This document shows, one piece after another, positions 8,535 through 14,680 of a stretch of 64,000 nucleotides of DNA. The translations under genes were made by a program, and so were the position numbers. The notes below the pieces were generated by a model. The model ran no database searches, had not been told where the DNA came from, and worked only from the letters and a program-made list of their open reading frames with translations. This DNA comes from Parietichytrium sp. I65-24A (Eukaryota; Sar; Bigyra; Thraustochytrida; Thraustochytriidae): positions 81,134 to 145,133 of the forward strand of contig BLSF01000085.1 in the NCBI GenBank assembly GCA_012862575.1, in the 5' to 3' direction. Position 1 is the first letter of the stretch; each line of letters opens with the position of its first letter.

Positions 8535-10511
8535 ATGGAAGCTGTGAGAAGATGGCAACAGCGACTGGAAAGAGCGTCGTGGAAGGCGCTGACCGAAGAT
8601 GATGCGTTGAAAGCTGTGTCGAATTTCGTTTCCATGGAGAAAGTCAGCGTCGCGAAAACCGAGGCGGTCTCGGACGACCTTTTCATTGTGCAGTGGAACG
8701 ACTCTACTGGCGCTCAGAGAACGTTTTGCGTGAAGCAAGCAGCGGCGGGCGAATCGGCTGATTTGGATTGTGAGTATCTGGCGCTTGAACTCTGGCGCGA
8801 ATTTGTGCCCTGCAGCGTGCAGAACGTGCTTGGAATGAGCGAGGGGAGGTCACATATTGTCGTGGAGGAGCCTGAAGAATTCGTAGCATTGCCTGTGCTG
8901 ATCTTCGCTAAAGACAAGGTTGTGGATGTGGTGGGCGCAGAGGTAGGGGCCAAGCTCGCCACGATGGCGTTTCGCACAAGCGTTTTCGGGATGAACTCTG
9001 CCGACCGAAGCATTTTAGTGCAAGCATTCGAGCAGAATCGAAAAAGCGCTGAATCGATAGAGGTGTCGTTGTTTCAGCAAGTTCTTCAAGCCGCCAATGC
9101 AGAGCAAGAGATTGACAAGGATCTTTTGGTTGCGCTGGAAGAGCTGACTTGCAACCCTTCTTTTGTTCGTCGTTCAGCGGAGTTGCGCCACAAGTTCTCG
9201 TCTTGCAAAAATTCATTACTTCATGGCAACCTCTGCACCGACAGTGTGCTGGCAAACTCAGCGGGAGAGGTTTGCATTCGCAATCTAGAAGGCGCTCTCA
9301 TGGGCCCCATCGGCTTTGATCTCGGAATTTTTACGGCGCATTTGATTTTCACAGCCCTACAGCTTGAGGACCCGGAGGATGCCAAGAGACCACTCACGTG
9401 CATGTGCGATCTGTGGCAAGGGTTTCGGACCACCTTTTCGTATTTGTTCGCCCTGGAGAAGCAATCTTTGCAAGACAGAGCAAGCACCACAAGAACCAGC
9501 TTCTTCTTTCAAGAAGGCGAGGCAGAGTCTTGCAGTATTATCTCGGACACAATAGGAGAGGTCTGGAAGGACACAATAGGTTTTGCTGCTTTTGAGCTCA
9601 TCAGAATCGCGCTGAGTTATGCTGAGTCGTTCAAGATAACTAATGGTGCGATAGAGCTACATAAAAGGCTTTTGATGCTGGAAATTGCATCAGAAATGCT
9701 TCTTCGTATGTCAAGGTATTCGACCGATATCTCTGTATCAAATTTGGTGGAGTCCAGGTTAGCCGGCAGCCAGATCCGGCCCAGGGCTCGCCTCTACATG
9801 TTTGCGAAGATGCCAAAACTAGGGAAATCTAAAACGCGACTTGCGGCTAAAATAGGCAATGAGCGCGCTCTCTCGTTTGCAGAAAGCTGCCTCTTGGATC
9901 TCTTGGAGCGTTTCGGGGGAGAGACGGACTGCAGCCTACAGGTCGATGTGGAGCGGGTGATCCTTTTTGTTCCGGATTCAGATCTACAAGAATACAAGTT
10001 GATGCTGGAGGCGAAGCTCCCAGAGGCACTCCGTTGGTGGAAAATGCACGGACTTTCCACAGCCCTGATGGGTTCCAATTTGGGTACGGCCTTGTCGTCA
10101 GCGTATGACATTGCCAGGGAGGAAGGGTGCTCATCAGTCGGCTTTATCGGAATGGACACCCCTGACCTTGAGCCAAGGGAGGTTTTTGAGCAGCTAGCAC
10201 GATGCTCCCACTCAGATGTTCACAGTTGCTTGTTTCCTGCCGAAGACGGTGGCTATGTGTTCTTGGGTTTGCCGTGCCACAAGCGCTTCGGTGCAACACA
10301 ATTTTTTGACAAGGTCCGATGGTCCGAGAGCTGCACCTTTGCAACTCAAGCGCGAGCTCTTTTGAAATGCCAACTGCACCTCGATATCGGGCCAGTGTAC
10401 GCGGACATCGATGATGAGGAGGGCATGCTCAAGTTCCTCTCGAGACTTGAACGAGACTCGGACCTTGCACATGCTCTTCCGCGATTGTACTCATTTTCCT
10501 GTGAGCCGTGA
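8535..10511 (+). CDS. Fusion: methylthioribose-kinase-like (degenerate) domain plus TIGR04282/DUF2064 glycosyltransferase
   Basis: 658-residue single-exon protein. Residues about 1-400 follow 5-methylthioribose kinase (MtnK, APH/kinase fold): CVKQA for the ATP lysine, LLHGNLCTDSV for the catalytic loop, and RNLEGALMGPIGFDLG for the metal-binding stretch. The family normally has HGD and D-P-E there; here both aspartates are asparagine (Asn232, codon AAC; Asn250, codon AAT), so phosphotransfer is doubtful. Residues about 417-655 match the TIGR04282/DUF2064 glycosyltransferase fold: RLYMFAKMPKLGKSKTRLA, GMDTPDL (Asp541 region), PAEDGGYVFLGL (Glu570 region), VRWSES and DIDDEEG, all intact. In bacteria this family is named for arsenosugar biosynthesis. 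A role in making or capping a 5-deoxyribose-type sugar is inference. Start at the first in-frame ATG. Confidence 0.85.
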   Translation: MEAVRRWQQRLERASWKALTEDDALKAVSNFVSMEKVSVAKTEAVSDDLFIVQWNDSTGAQRTFCVKQAAAGESADLDCEYLALELWREFVPCSVQNVLGMSEGRSHIVVEEPEEFVALPVLIFAKDKVVDVVGAEVGAKLATMAFRTSVFGMNSADRSILVQAFEQNRKSAESIEVSLFQQVLQAANAEQEIDKDLLVALEELTCNPSFVRRSAELRHKFSSCKNSLLHGNLCTDSVLANSAGEVCIRNLEGALMGPIGFDLGIFTAHLIFTALQLEDPEDAKRPLTCMCDLWQGFRTTFSYLFALEKQSLQDRASTTRTSFFFQEGEAESCSIISDTIGEVWKDTIGFAAFELIRIALSYAESFKITNGAIELHKRLLMLEIASEMLLRMSRYSTDISVSNLVESRLAGSQIRPRARLYMFAKMPKLGKSKTRLAAKIGNERALSFAESCLLDLLERFGGETDCSLQVDVERVILFVPDSDLQEYKLMLEAKLPEALRWWKMHGLSTALMGSNLGTALSSAYDIAREEGCSSVGFIGMDTPDLEPREVFEQLARCSHSDVHSCLFPAEDGGYVFLGLPCHKRFGATQFFDKVRWSESCTFATQARALLKCQLHLDIGPVYADIDDEEGMLKFLSRLERDSDLAHALPRLYSFSCEP

Positions 10512-12121: not shown

Positions 12122-14680
12122 ATGACGCGACAGCAGGTGGTAGTGGAGGATGCGGCTTATGATACAGAGGACGAGAAGCGCGGGCGGTCCCGCAGTTCCT
12201 CCATACCCGGAAAAGAGCGAGCCAAGAAGAAAGTGTGGTCCATCTTGATGATCAGCGCGGACCCAACGACCCATCACAAACTCAAGCTTCAGGCGGAAGA
12301 GCGTGCAATCAGAAAGAGCCTAGGGATGGCCCGAGACAGCGTGGAGATCAAACTGGACGTCCTTCCCGCCGCAACGATCGATGACGTAGCTGAGTGCTTG
12401 CTGAGGAAGTCGGCATCAGGCTCGGCGTATGACATTGTCCATTTCTCTGGGCATTGTGATCAGCACCACCACATGGTGCAGCTAATCTTTTCGGAGCTAG
12501 AGAAGCAGCACGGAAAAGATGTTGTCAGTCGCTTCAAAGCCAGCCACGATGCGACACGAGGAATTCATGAGCTTGCCGTCCAGGTGTCAAAGCATCTCGA
12601 GCTTCAGGCCGGGTGCTATATGGACGAATTGTACTACGGCGAGGAGGACGGCGACTTCGAGATGCACGATGGCTGTCAGCAGCCAGAGAAAGAGGAGTTT
12701 CCGGAGCAAAGCGAAGAGGTGCGCAAGGAAGACCAAGAGAGTGAGTCTCCGCAGGATGAGAGCACGAACTGTGCCAGCGAGTCGTCTGTGACAACGGCGG
12801 AGAGGTCAGAGGCTGACAAGGGTCGAAAGGATTCCGACGGAGAGACTATCACGATGGAGGAGACCAAGGAAATCTCGGACGAGGAGGTTGGTGAAACGGA
12901 TTCTGATCAGCGTGCCTTCCGCTGGGACTCCTTTCGCACGCCTCGAAAGCTACAGCGCAGTGCGAGTTTTGACAATATTAGTATCGAAGTGGACGCGAGG
13001 GGAGCATGGGAAGGAGAAGGGCGCAGAGGGCGTTCCTTCTCTCGCGGCACACGCGAACAAGGAGCGTCGCGCTCCTTATCCCCTACATTCCGGGTTCATA
13101 TGAGGAGAAAGGCAGGTACAGCACCGGCAGGCGAAGATCAAAGTCCTAGCGAGCAAACGGAAGATCGCGGTCGGGCGGGAGAGGAGGAGGCCAGGGTTGA
13201 GGAGCAGCAATTATTGGTGTTTACTCACGATGCCGCTTCCTCGGCCGCACACAATGAAGGACCCTTGCACTTTCCAAACGACCAAGACTCTCTCGTCCTT
13301 CGACTGCCAGATGTGATATCTAGAACCTTTCAGCCAGGGCTTGGACTGTTTCCCGACCACTCAGACGACGAAGAAGTGGTTCCGACAAAAGACATTGTGC
13401 TCACGAAGCAGCAGATTCTGGATGCTGGCGTGGGGTCTTTGGCTTTTGAGACCGGGACGGGTTCAGGAATGAATTTTGTCGGGGCCAAAGCGTTCGCTGC
13501 GATGATCTCGCCCTACGCACTCGACACTGGCTGCGTCTTGCTGAATGCGTGCAACTCTCAGCTGACGTGCGAGCAGATTCTCTCGGTTGGAATCCCTTTT
13601 GCAATATGCAGCCGGGGACGTATGAGCGATAAATCTGCACTCCACTTTTCACAAGGATTCTACGAAGCAATTGCATTTGGTCATGGGATCGAGCGTGCGT
13701 TCTTGGAGGGGCAGAGCAGAATCTCCGTGCACAGCCACAAGGTTGCTCGCCACGCCGCCGGACCTACTGCCATTGTACCTGGGACGGGTATTCCGTTTGG
13801 GGTCTCGGGATTGGAGGATGGAGAGAATCAAGTGTGTCTGATGCGCGCAAACGGCCGCATGGTTTTGGAGCCGGTGAGCGTGCGCCAGCACGTTCACATT
13901 TCCAGTGAAAATACTCGTCTCAAGAGCGTCATCCACGAAGGTGTCAAGATATTGTCTGAAAAGGACAAGGAAATCGAAGCCTTAAAAGCCAAAATTGCAA
14001 AGATGGAGGCAGAAGCCAGTACCCAGCCGAAAACGCCAGGTCCGAAACGTGACGGACTTCGCCGCACAAGCAGCTCGAGGCTGAAACCCGGCTCAAGTGA
14101 GAAATCACAGCCCCGCCTCCGCACACAGCGAAAACGCCAAGAAGAACAGCCTGGAAACTCGCAAAGCCGGTCGCGTACCGAAGGAGCGTCCGGCCCAGCG
14201 CAGTTCAGGCGAAGAACGCCGTCCCCATCTGCCTCGCGTGTTCAGAGCGAAACCGATTCGAAGCCTCTGCCTCCATGGATTCCCTCGGGGTCTGGAGGCG
14301 ACTCACACCGCCATTCGCACCTCCAGAGTGCCACTCCGTCCGTTTCACCATCACCGTCTTCAGGGATGTCAGCGCAAGGAGCCGCTTCCTCGAGCCCGAG
14401 CGGAAACAACAAGGAGAACTATGTTCGTGTCACCGTCAATGGTAAACAGCACAAGTCATCAGGCGGTGGGAATAGAAGCAAGTCTACTACTGTATTTACA
14501 ACCTCGGAGTCTTCCTCCGGCCCTCATACGCAATCGACCAACGGTGCACTTCACGAACATCATGGCAACGCGATCCATCCGCAGCCCAAACTAAGTGGGT
14601 TCGGCTCTAGCGTTCCTCGTTTTTCCGCGAGTACACTTGTGAACCCTACACGGTACGAGACGATGTCGCCCCGGAGTTGA
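12122..14680 (+). CDS. CHAT-domain cysteine protease with long internal insertion
   Basis: 852-residue single-exon protein, ATG at 12122. CHAT proteases are clan CD (caspase/separase-like) with a His-Cys dyad. The His motif is at residues 104-113 (DIVHFSGHC, His111) and the Cys motif at about 472-480 (VLLNACNSQ, Cys477), with the expected strand before each; GIPFAICSRG and SDKSALHFSQGFYEAI follow as in the family. Between the two lies an insertion of roughly 300 residues rich in Glu, Ser and Arg, predicted disordered, where bacterial CHAT domains have a short loop. A short coiled coil follows near 600-640 (HISSENTRL...LSEKDKEIEALKAKIAKMEAEA), then a Ser/Pro/Arg-rich tail. A basic RSRS segment precedes the domain. 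There is no TPR in the same protein. Substrate and partner are unknown. Confidence 0.85.
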   Translation: MTRQQVVVEDAAYDTEDEKRGRSRSSSIPGKERAKKKVWSILMISADPTTHHKLKLQAEERAIRKSLGMARDSVEIKLDVLPAATIDDVAECLLRKSASGSAYDIVHFSGHCDQHHHMVQLIFSELEKQHGKDVVSRFKASHDATRGIHELAVQVSKHLELQAGCYMDELYYGEEDGDFEMHDGCQQPEKEEFPEQSEEVRKEDQESESPQDESTNCASESSVTTAERSEADKGRKDSDGETITMEETKEISDEEVGETDSDQRAFRWDSFRTPRKLQRSASFDNISIEVDARGAWEGEGRRGRSFSRGTREQGASRSLSPTFRVHMRRKAGTAPAGEDQSPSEQTEDRGRAGEEEARVEEQQLLVFTHDAASSAAHNEGPLHFPNDQDSLVLRLPDVISRTFQPGLGLFPDHSDDEEVVPTKDIVLTKQQILDAGVGSLAFETGTGSGMNFVGAKAFAAMISPYALDTGCVLLNACNSQLTCEQILSVGIPFAICSRGRMSDKSALHFSQGFYEAIAFGHGIERAFLEGQSRISVHSHKVARHAAGPTAIVPGTGIPFGVSGLEDGENQVCLMRANGRMVLEPVSVRQHVHISSENTRLKSVIHEGVKILSEKDKEIEALKAKIAKMEAEASTQPKTPGPKRDGLRRTSSSRLKPGSSEKSQPRLRTQRKRQEEQPGNSQSRSRTEGASGPAQFRRRTPSPSASRVQSETDSKPLPPWIPSGSGGDSHRHSHLQSATPSVSPSPSSGMSAQGAASSSPSGNNKENYVRVTVNGKQHKSSGGGNRSKSTTVFTTSESSSGPHTQSTNGALHEHHGNAIHPQPKLSGFGSSVPRFSASTLVNPTRYETMSPRS

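Follow-up and report, generated by a model that had tools for sequence, protein, structure and literature searches.

A eukaryotic fusion of a degenerate methylthioribose-kinase-like half and a CofC-like domain: a tentative candidate for a late step of arsenosugar synthesis

We analysed a stretch of 64,000 nucleotides from contig BLSF01000085.1 of the thraustochytrid Parietichytrium sp. I65-24A (assembly GCA_012862575.1); this whole 64-kb stretch is called the window below. Its plus strand carries a 658-codon open frame from an ATG at 8535 to a stop ending at 10511, which a first-pass annotation had described as a fusion of a methylthioribose (MTR) kinase (MtnK)-like half with a TIGR04282/DUF2064 domain. 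NCBIfam matches to both families confirmed this layout (Table 1). Residues 54-403 matched TIGR01767 (S-methyl-5-thioribose kinase) with an E value of 1.5e-34; the score, 119.8 bits (121.1 in the whole-genome search), falls short of the curated cut-off, 275. Residues 420-629 matched positions 1-187 of the 189 of TIGR04282 with an E value of 7.4e-25 and 87.8 bits, against a cut-off of 134; the C-terminal domain alone reached 90.9 bits, still under this cut-off. In Pfam, DUF2064 alone matched the fusion with E no greater than 1 (E 4.5e-13). When the PDB was searched by sequence, the first half found the B. subtilis MTR kinase 2olc and, more weakly, 2pyw, which is titled uncharacterized and which we take to be the Arabidopsis MTR kinase. 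The second half found 3cgx, titled putative nucleotide-diphospho-sugar transferase. Judged by these matches, the fusion is a divergent relative of both families, with homology far beyond chance. The codon-position G+C of both halves lies inside the range of 10 other Pfam-supported open reading frames (ORFs) of the window, as expected for a maintained coding frame.

Table 1. Coordinates of the fusion, its domains and key residues in the window, and of a phosphorylase-like frame elsewhere in the genome
Feature	Location	Strand	Basis
Fused MTR-kinase-like + TIGR04282 (CofC-like) ORF	8535..10511	+	Open frame, profile matches
MTR-kinase-like domain, residues 54-403	8694..9743	+	TIGR01767 positions 46-398/401; 2olc and 2pyw matches; alignment
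TIGR04282/DUF2064 domain (residues 420-629), related to nucleotidylyltransferases of the CofC type	9792..10421	+	Pfam, NCBIfam, profile searches
Asn232 codon AAC (HGN), in place of the HGD catalytic Asp	9228..9230	+	2olc alignment; Asp in 25/25 relatives
Asn250 codon AAT (NLE), where DxE has its first metal-binding Asp	9282..9284	+	2olc alignment; Asp in 25/25 relatives
Arg357-Ile358, where relatives have RR; only the first Arg survives	9603..9608	+	Alignment; RR role from excerpts of PMC2194712
KTRL motif K433-L436, resembling AKTRL/AKSRL of CofC-type chains	9831..9842	+	Domain alignment
Asp541, aligned to Mg-binding D116 of CofC/FbiD	10155..10157	+	Alignment
Asp624-Ile-Asp626, aligned to Mg-binding D191/D193 of CofC (D188/D190 of FbiD)	10404..10412	+	Alignment
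Methylthioadenosine-phosphorylase-like + amidohydrolase frame (P0003)	L028 1-2136; first match G000:C33 385977-386597	complement	TIGR01694 E 3.1e-44, below cut-off

The kinase-like half was compared with all 25 MTR-kinase ORFs found in Pseudomonadota, 15 of which were used in the kinase alignment. The HGD motif, aligned in 25/25 of the bacterial kinases, reads HGN in the fusion, and DxE, also present in 25/25 and reading D-P-E in 2olc, has become NLE. Both asparagines, Asn232 and Asn250, had been pointed out by the first-pass annotation, and aspartate indeed stands at both places in 2olc and in every one of the 25 relatives. The decay goes further. The twin-arginine MTR-binding motif RR (25/25) is RI in the fusion, and the GxGNxN G-loop is altered and three residues shorter. 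The five residues preceding the W-loop (LPYVR) are missing, its W, found in 25/25 relatives, is replaced by A, and the aromatic position that follows DxE, F in 24 relatives and Y in one, has G. The β3 lysine (K67), the first arginine of the RR motif (R357) and the GPIGFD block are kept. The first-pass annotation had understated the decay; its view of the domain as degenerate is supported. A sequencing slip as the source of the double Asp-to-Asn change was considered and dismissed, since the fusion has lost several separate motifs at once.

Excerpts of the report on the Arabidopsis MTR kinase structure (PMC2194712) assign roles to most of these residues. In that enzyme the HGD aspartate polarises and holds O1/O2 of the sugar, DxE serves in Mg-nucleotide binding, and the first arginine of RR contacts O2/O3. 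The phenylalanine after DxE faces the hydrophobic side of the sugar and the W-loop meets the 5-substituent. Set against these MTR contacts as the excerpts give them, the evidence from the fusion is mixed: the first arginine is kept, the HGD aspartate has become asparagine, and the phenylalanine and the W-loop are lost. The loss of the HGD, DxE, RR, G-loop and W-loop motifs makes phosphotransfer by this half unlikely, and we classify it, by its sequence, as a pseudo-kinase. Sugar binding by it is possible, with most of the known contacts changed.

The C-terminal domain is in a different state. As the first-pass annotation had stated, it keeps all the family motifs: KTRL, GxD, DGG and DxD are present in it and in 11/11 aligned bacterial TIGR04282 domains, to which it is 22-30% identical. 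This alignment holds 11 of 14 TIGR04282 hits; the other three were second copies of the same loci, and two rows were trimmed to the domain. The label glycosyltransferase, given to the domain in the first-pass annotation, was not supported in that form. The name derives from the title of the TIGR04282 model, "arsenosugar biosynthesis glycosyltransferase", whose short name is glyco_like_cofC, and no glycosyltransferase profile other than TIGR04282 matched the domain in Pfam or NCBIfam at E up to 1. A profile built from 12 TIGR04282 domains was run against the PDB and found at E < 0.1, besides 3cgx, only 2i5e (4.6e-6), 6bwg (5.4e-5) and 7p97 (0.03). Both 6bwg and 7p97 carry the name guanylyltransferase; 2i5e, presumably a CofC, bears the title hypothetical, and 3cgx is only "putative". 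The cofC model TIGR03552 was matched by 12/12 TIGR04282 domains with E values no higher than 1, and a few of them matched MobA or CMP-KDO synthetase models weakly.

CofC attaches a nucleotide to a small molecule that carries a phosphate. According to excerpts of PMC8764529, CofC and FbiD use three aspartates to hold two Mg ions next to the phosphates. D541, D624 and D626 of the fusion correspond to D116, D191 and D193 of 7p97 (chain positions 143, 218 and 220, counted by hand) in a weak HMMER alignment (E 0.03), and the 2i5e alignment agrees. This putative Mg-binding triad, made of the GxD aspartate and both DxD aspartates, is Asp in 12/12 TIGR04282 domains. These data favour a nucleotidylyltransferase over a glycosyltransferase as the likelier identity of the TIGR04282 domain.

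We searched the genome of the same organism (G000; a 42.5-Mb assembly in 172 contigs) for arsenic and salvage genes. These searches scored only the candidates that ranked highest in a loose initial screen, and a sole match is the only one found. The fusion ORF was the sole match to TIGR01767 even at E up to 10, and the sole match to DUF2064 at E up to 0.001. A gene for ArsS (TIGR04167) on contig C142 scored 414.8 bits, above its cut-off of 300. This ArsS (L003:1048-2412) has an N-terminal extension of about 150 residues; by eye, a hydrophobic stretch and an acidic region lie ahead of the radical SAM domain, and this part may serve in membrane anchoring or targeting. Near ArsS, an ORF at L011:2219-3484 on the minus strand resembles, by eye, a PARP catalytic domain. 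A TIGR04283-like GT2 protein on contig C86 matched with E 2.2e-44 and 154.3-155.7 bits (cut-off 182); five other, far weaker matches lie elsewhere. An ArsM-like gene on contig C109 consists of two same-frame ORFs. Against NF008823, an arsenite methyltransferase model with a cut-off of 263, the first scored 164.7 bits (E 3e-48); the second had no match in NCBIfam with an E value of 0.001 or less. The stretch that separates them is bounded, by eye, by GTAAGT and CAG and is apparently a short intron.

Among the 22 other ORFs of the window, a Pfam scan found no arsenic gene, and the arsenic link in this genome is real but dispersed. The first-pass annotation had proposed a check for co-occurrence with ArsM and ArsS, and within this genome ArsS was found at 414.8 bits, and an ArsM-like gene under its cut-off. 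It had also stated that homologues with intact HGD and DPE motifs and no link to arsenic genes would refute its idea; the genome gave no second TIGR01767 match and does contain ArsS and the ArsM-like gene, so that within this genome the idea is not refuted. A bacterial contaminant was considered and rejected because the window holds eukaryotic genes, including kinesin and RRM proteins by Pfam; the surroundings of ArsS and of the TIGR04283 relative also have a eukaryotic look by eye. The next long ORF downstream of the fusion (12122-14680, 852 amino acids) matched the CHAT (caspase-like protease) family with E 1.4e-6 and 28.4 bits against a cut-off of 24.

The salvage genes bear on what a lost MTR kinase would mean. 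MtnA, which acts after MTR 1-phosphate in methionine salvage, was found at 399.6 bits together with three weaker relatives. One frame (P0003, read to the edge of its locus) joins a methylthioadenosine (MTA)-phosphorylase-like domain to an amidohydrolase like MTA/5'-deoxyadenosine deaminase (Table 1), and by its domain content could link the deamination of 5'-substituted adenosines with their phosphorolysis. The genome also has a separate purine nucleoside phosphorylase. With MtnA and an MTA-phosphorylase-like domain in place and the sole TIGR01767 match degenerate, methionine salvage may bypass MTR kinase: we infer that it may run by phosphorolysis of 5'-substituted adenosines to the sugar 1-phosphate, which leaves an MTR kinase unneeded.

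In the bacteria sampled, TIGR04282 goes with ArsS and MTR kinase does not. We compared eight bacterial ArsS loci, three annotated plasmid stretches and five genome loci. In 5/8 (L018, L020, L021, L023 and L024) a TIGR04282 gene is at most about 9 kb away from ArsS, and the GT2-type TIGR04283 is near ArsS in six (the same five and L022); L019 and L025 have neither gene near ArsS. An MTA phosphorylase is near ArsS in 2/8 loci, L020 and L021, where the TIGR04282, TIGR04283 and MTA-phosphorylase genes are neighbours, all no more than 9 kb from ArsS. The order in L021, all on one strand, is ArsS, a sterol-desaturase-like gene (by eye), MTA phosphorylase, TIGR04283 and TIGR04282. A sterol-desaturase-family gene adjoins ArsS in L018 (annotated), L021 and L023 (both by eye).

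We then counted genomes. Among 398 Pseudomonadota genomes (ArsS at E <= 1e-40, TIGR04282 at E <= 0.001), 117 had ArsS, 170 had TIGR04282 and 107 had both. TIGR04282 was present in 107/117 genomes with ArsS as compared to 63/281 without it, giving an odds ratio of 37 and p of about 1e-39 with relatedness ignored. A match to the MTR-kinase half was found in 37 genomes, a lower bound because the query was the divergent window protein; two of them had ArsS and 10 had TIGR04282. In the two with ArsS the genes are apart: the kinase is 1.46 Mb from ArsS in G309 and on a different contig in G004. Within about 1.5 kb on each side of the 30 best TIGR04282 loci, TIGR04283 was found in 17, ArsS in three and an ArsM match in five. 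One bacterial frame (L072:1465-2835, minus strand) is itself a TIGR04283-TIGR04282 fusion, GT2 plus CofC-like, with E 1.4e-76 and 2.5e-57, both above cut-off, and is in keeping with consecutive steps.

A kinase-TIGR04282 fusion was found in none of the 398 Pseudomonadota genomes: no match spanned substantial parts of both domains, and no genome had matches to both halves in one frame. None of 97 matching plasmid records covered 80% of the fusion, and scans of viral contigs found no relative of the fusion, the kinase half, the kinase alignment or a TIGR04282 subset. Beyond Pseudomonadota and plasmids, the fusion search covered a handful of genomes, with the organism's own genome as the eukaryotic sample; orthologues whose kinase is intact may occur elsewhere.

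From the fusion, the lost kinase motifs, the conserved aspartate triad and the ArsS, ArsM-like, phosphorylase-like and GT2 genes found in one genome, we infer a substrate, a reaction, an acceptor and a role for the N-terminal domain. A review (PMC12159101) states that a radical SAM enzyme, ArsS by a cited title, adenosylates arsenic in oxo-arsenosugar synthesis. ArsM, ArsS and an MTA-phosphorylase-type enzyme would then make 5-deoxy-5-dimethylarsinoyl-ribose 1-phosphate. The CofC-like domain would most likely transfer a nucleotide onto this compound, giving a nucleoside-diphosphate (NDP)-arsenoribose, from which the separate GT2 enzyme, the TIGR04283 relative, would pass the arsenoribose to a glycerol acceptor. 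Because the domain is CofC-like, a phosphorylase could supply the sugar 1-phosphate and a GT2 enzyme could use the NDP-sugar, the simplest assignment of the C-terminal domain is a putative sugar-1-phosphate nucleotidylyltransferase. The N-terminal domain would trace back to a sugar 1-kinase acting on 5-methylthioribose, which closely resembles the substrate proposed here; having lost phosphotransfer, the domain would be retained for binding the 5-substituted ribose, or its 1-phosphate, or for passing it on. This reading, a late arsenosugar-pathway enzyme in which the CofC-like domain activates arsenoribose 1-phosphate, the dead kinase holds the sugar and a separate GT2 transfers it, is the one that we favour, tentatively and at somewhat less than an even chance. 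A wider version, in which a pseudo-kinase substrate-holder and a CofC-like nucleotidylyltransferase make arsenosugars by way of nucleotide-activated arsenoribose and the bacterial TIGR04282 proteins are misnamed as well, is possible but doubtful.

Several observations weigh against this reading. The fusion is below the curated cut-offs of both TIGR01767 and TIGR04282, as the ArsM-like and TIGR04283-like genes, both strong relatives, are below theirs, and the four genes are unclustered, with the fusion on C85, ArsS on C142, the TIGR04283-like gene on C86 and the ArsM-like gene on C109. The claim of sugar binding is weakened by the loss of the phenylalanine, the W-loop and the HGD aspartate that contact MTR according to the excerpts of the Arabidopsis report. 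When used alone, the window domain matched TIGR03552 with E 0.001 and only 18.7 bits against a cut-off of 105, and in a phmmer search it matched no CofC structure. The window kinase half had matches in 0/8 bacterial ArsS loci, and neither MTR kinase nor MTA phosphorylase turned up (0/30 for each) in the flanks of about 1.5 kb around the 30 best loci for TIGR04282. The co-occurrence is also incomplete on both sides, with 63/170 TIGR04282 genomes lacking ArsS and 10/117 ArsS genomes lacking TIGR04282. A third gene of the purine nucleoside phosphorylase family (contig C62, 9585-10232) may encode a hydrolytic nucleosidase. The predicted structures had a low predicted local distance difference test (pLDDT) score, 40.3 for the whole fusion and 42.9 for the C-terminal domain, each from four alignment rows, most likely because the alignments were shallow.

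Different roles can be assigned to the N-terminal domain. With the C-terminal domain acting as in the favoured reading, the pseudo-kinase may be a sugar-free structural or regulatory appendage (dimerisation, partner binding, stability), a relic of a bifunctional sugar 1-kinase/nucleotidylyltransferase. The loss of the G-loop, the W-loop, the HGD and DxE aspartates, the aromatic residue after DxE and the second arginine all fit such a relic, and the bacterial TIGR04282 proteins seen have no such domain. Yet the first RR arginine, the β3 lysine and GPIGFD are still conserved, and the kinase half is still an open frame with ordinary codon composition; we regard the appendage as unlikely. The domain might also be catalytic by an unusual route, which would make the protein a bifunctional 5-substituted-ribose 1-kinase/nucleotidylyltransferase. 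Fucokinase/GDP-fucose pyrophosphorylase has a comparable layout, the order kinase then nucleotidylyltransferase is chemically sensible, and K67 and R357 are kept. The HGD aspartate, the DxE aspartate and the nucleotide loop, however, are gone, and these have central roles in the Arabidopsis structure as far as excerpts of PMC2194712 describe it, which leaves catalysis highly improbable.

For the C-terminal domain, the first-pass annotation had proposed a true glycosyltransferase that moves a 5-substituted ribose presented by the dead kinase. The NCBIfam title of TIGR04282 and the title of 3cgx speak for it, and neither reports a tested activity. The domain matches no glycosyltransferase family besides TIGR04282; among its relatives, those given a named activity are guanylyltransferases, whose Mg triad it keeps; and a GT2-type protein is present in this genome and in 6/8 bacterial ArsS loci, five of which have TIGR04282 too. 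These points make a glycosyltransferase very unlikely. A CofC-like activator of some other phosphorylated metabolite, with ArsS in the genome by chance and no arsenic role, would explain the 63 of 170 TIGR04282 genomes without an ArsS match, the lack of physical linkage in G000 and the scores of both domains well below the family cut-offs. It accounts less well for the fact that the only DUF2064 match (E up to 0.001) sits in a genome with ArsS, ArsM-like and TIGR04283-like genes, and that 107/117 ArsS genomes have TIGR04282, and we consider it quite unlikely.

By the account of the first-pass annotation, the late arsenosugar steps in eukaryotes are poorly known. The gene described here gives one concrete eukaryotic candidate, in a genome that also has ArsS and ArsM-like genes, and it gives TIGR04282 a definite testable reaction, the nucleotide activation of a 5-substituted ribose 1-phosphate. 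If the favoured reading is true, a small-molecule pseudo-kinase has been retained within a biosynthetic enzyme. A literature search without most subscription journals found nothing that joins arsenosugar with nucleotidyltransferase, or arsenosugar, glycosyltransferase and ArsS; the excerpts of PMC12608789 contain nothing on arsenosugar genes.

The protein can be placed among known systems. It resembles MtnK (TIGR01767; 2olc, 2pyw) in homology over profile positions 46-398 of 401, in the β3 lysine, in the first RR arginine and in GPIGFD, but differs from it in HGN, NxE, the lost G- and W-loops and RI, in being joined to a second enzyme and in scoring less than half the cut-off. With the TIGR04282 family it shares a full-length domain with KTRL, GxD, DGG and DxD; unlike the family, it scores below cut-off and has a 412-residue N-terminal part that is absent from the bacteria sampled. 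Profile similarity and three putative Mg-binding aspartates link it to the CofC/FbiD guanylyltransferases (6bwg and 7p97, and presumably 2i5e, titled hypothetical), whereas the window domain itself is distant from them (E 0.001 with TIGR03552). As compared to the bacterial arsenosugar gene sets of ArsS, ArsM, MTA phosphorylase, TIGR04283 and TIGR04282, relatives of all the parts are present in the Parietichytrium genome, but there the genes are unlinked, and the kinase-like half is unmatched in the eight bacterial ArsS loci.

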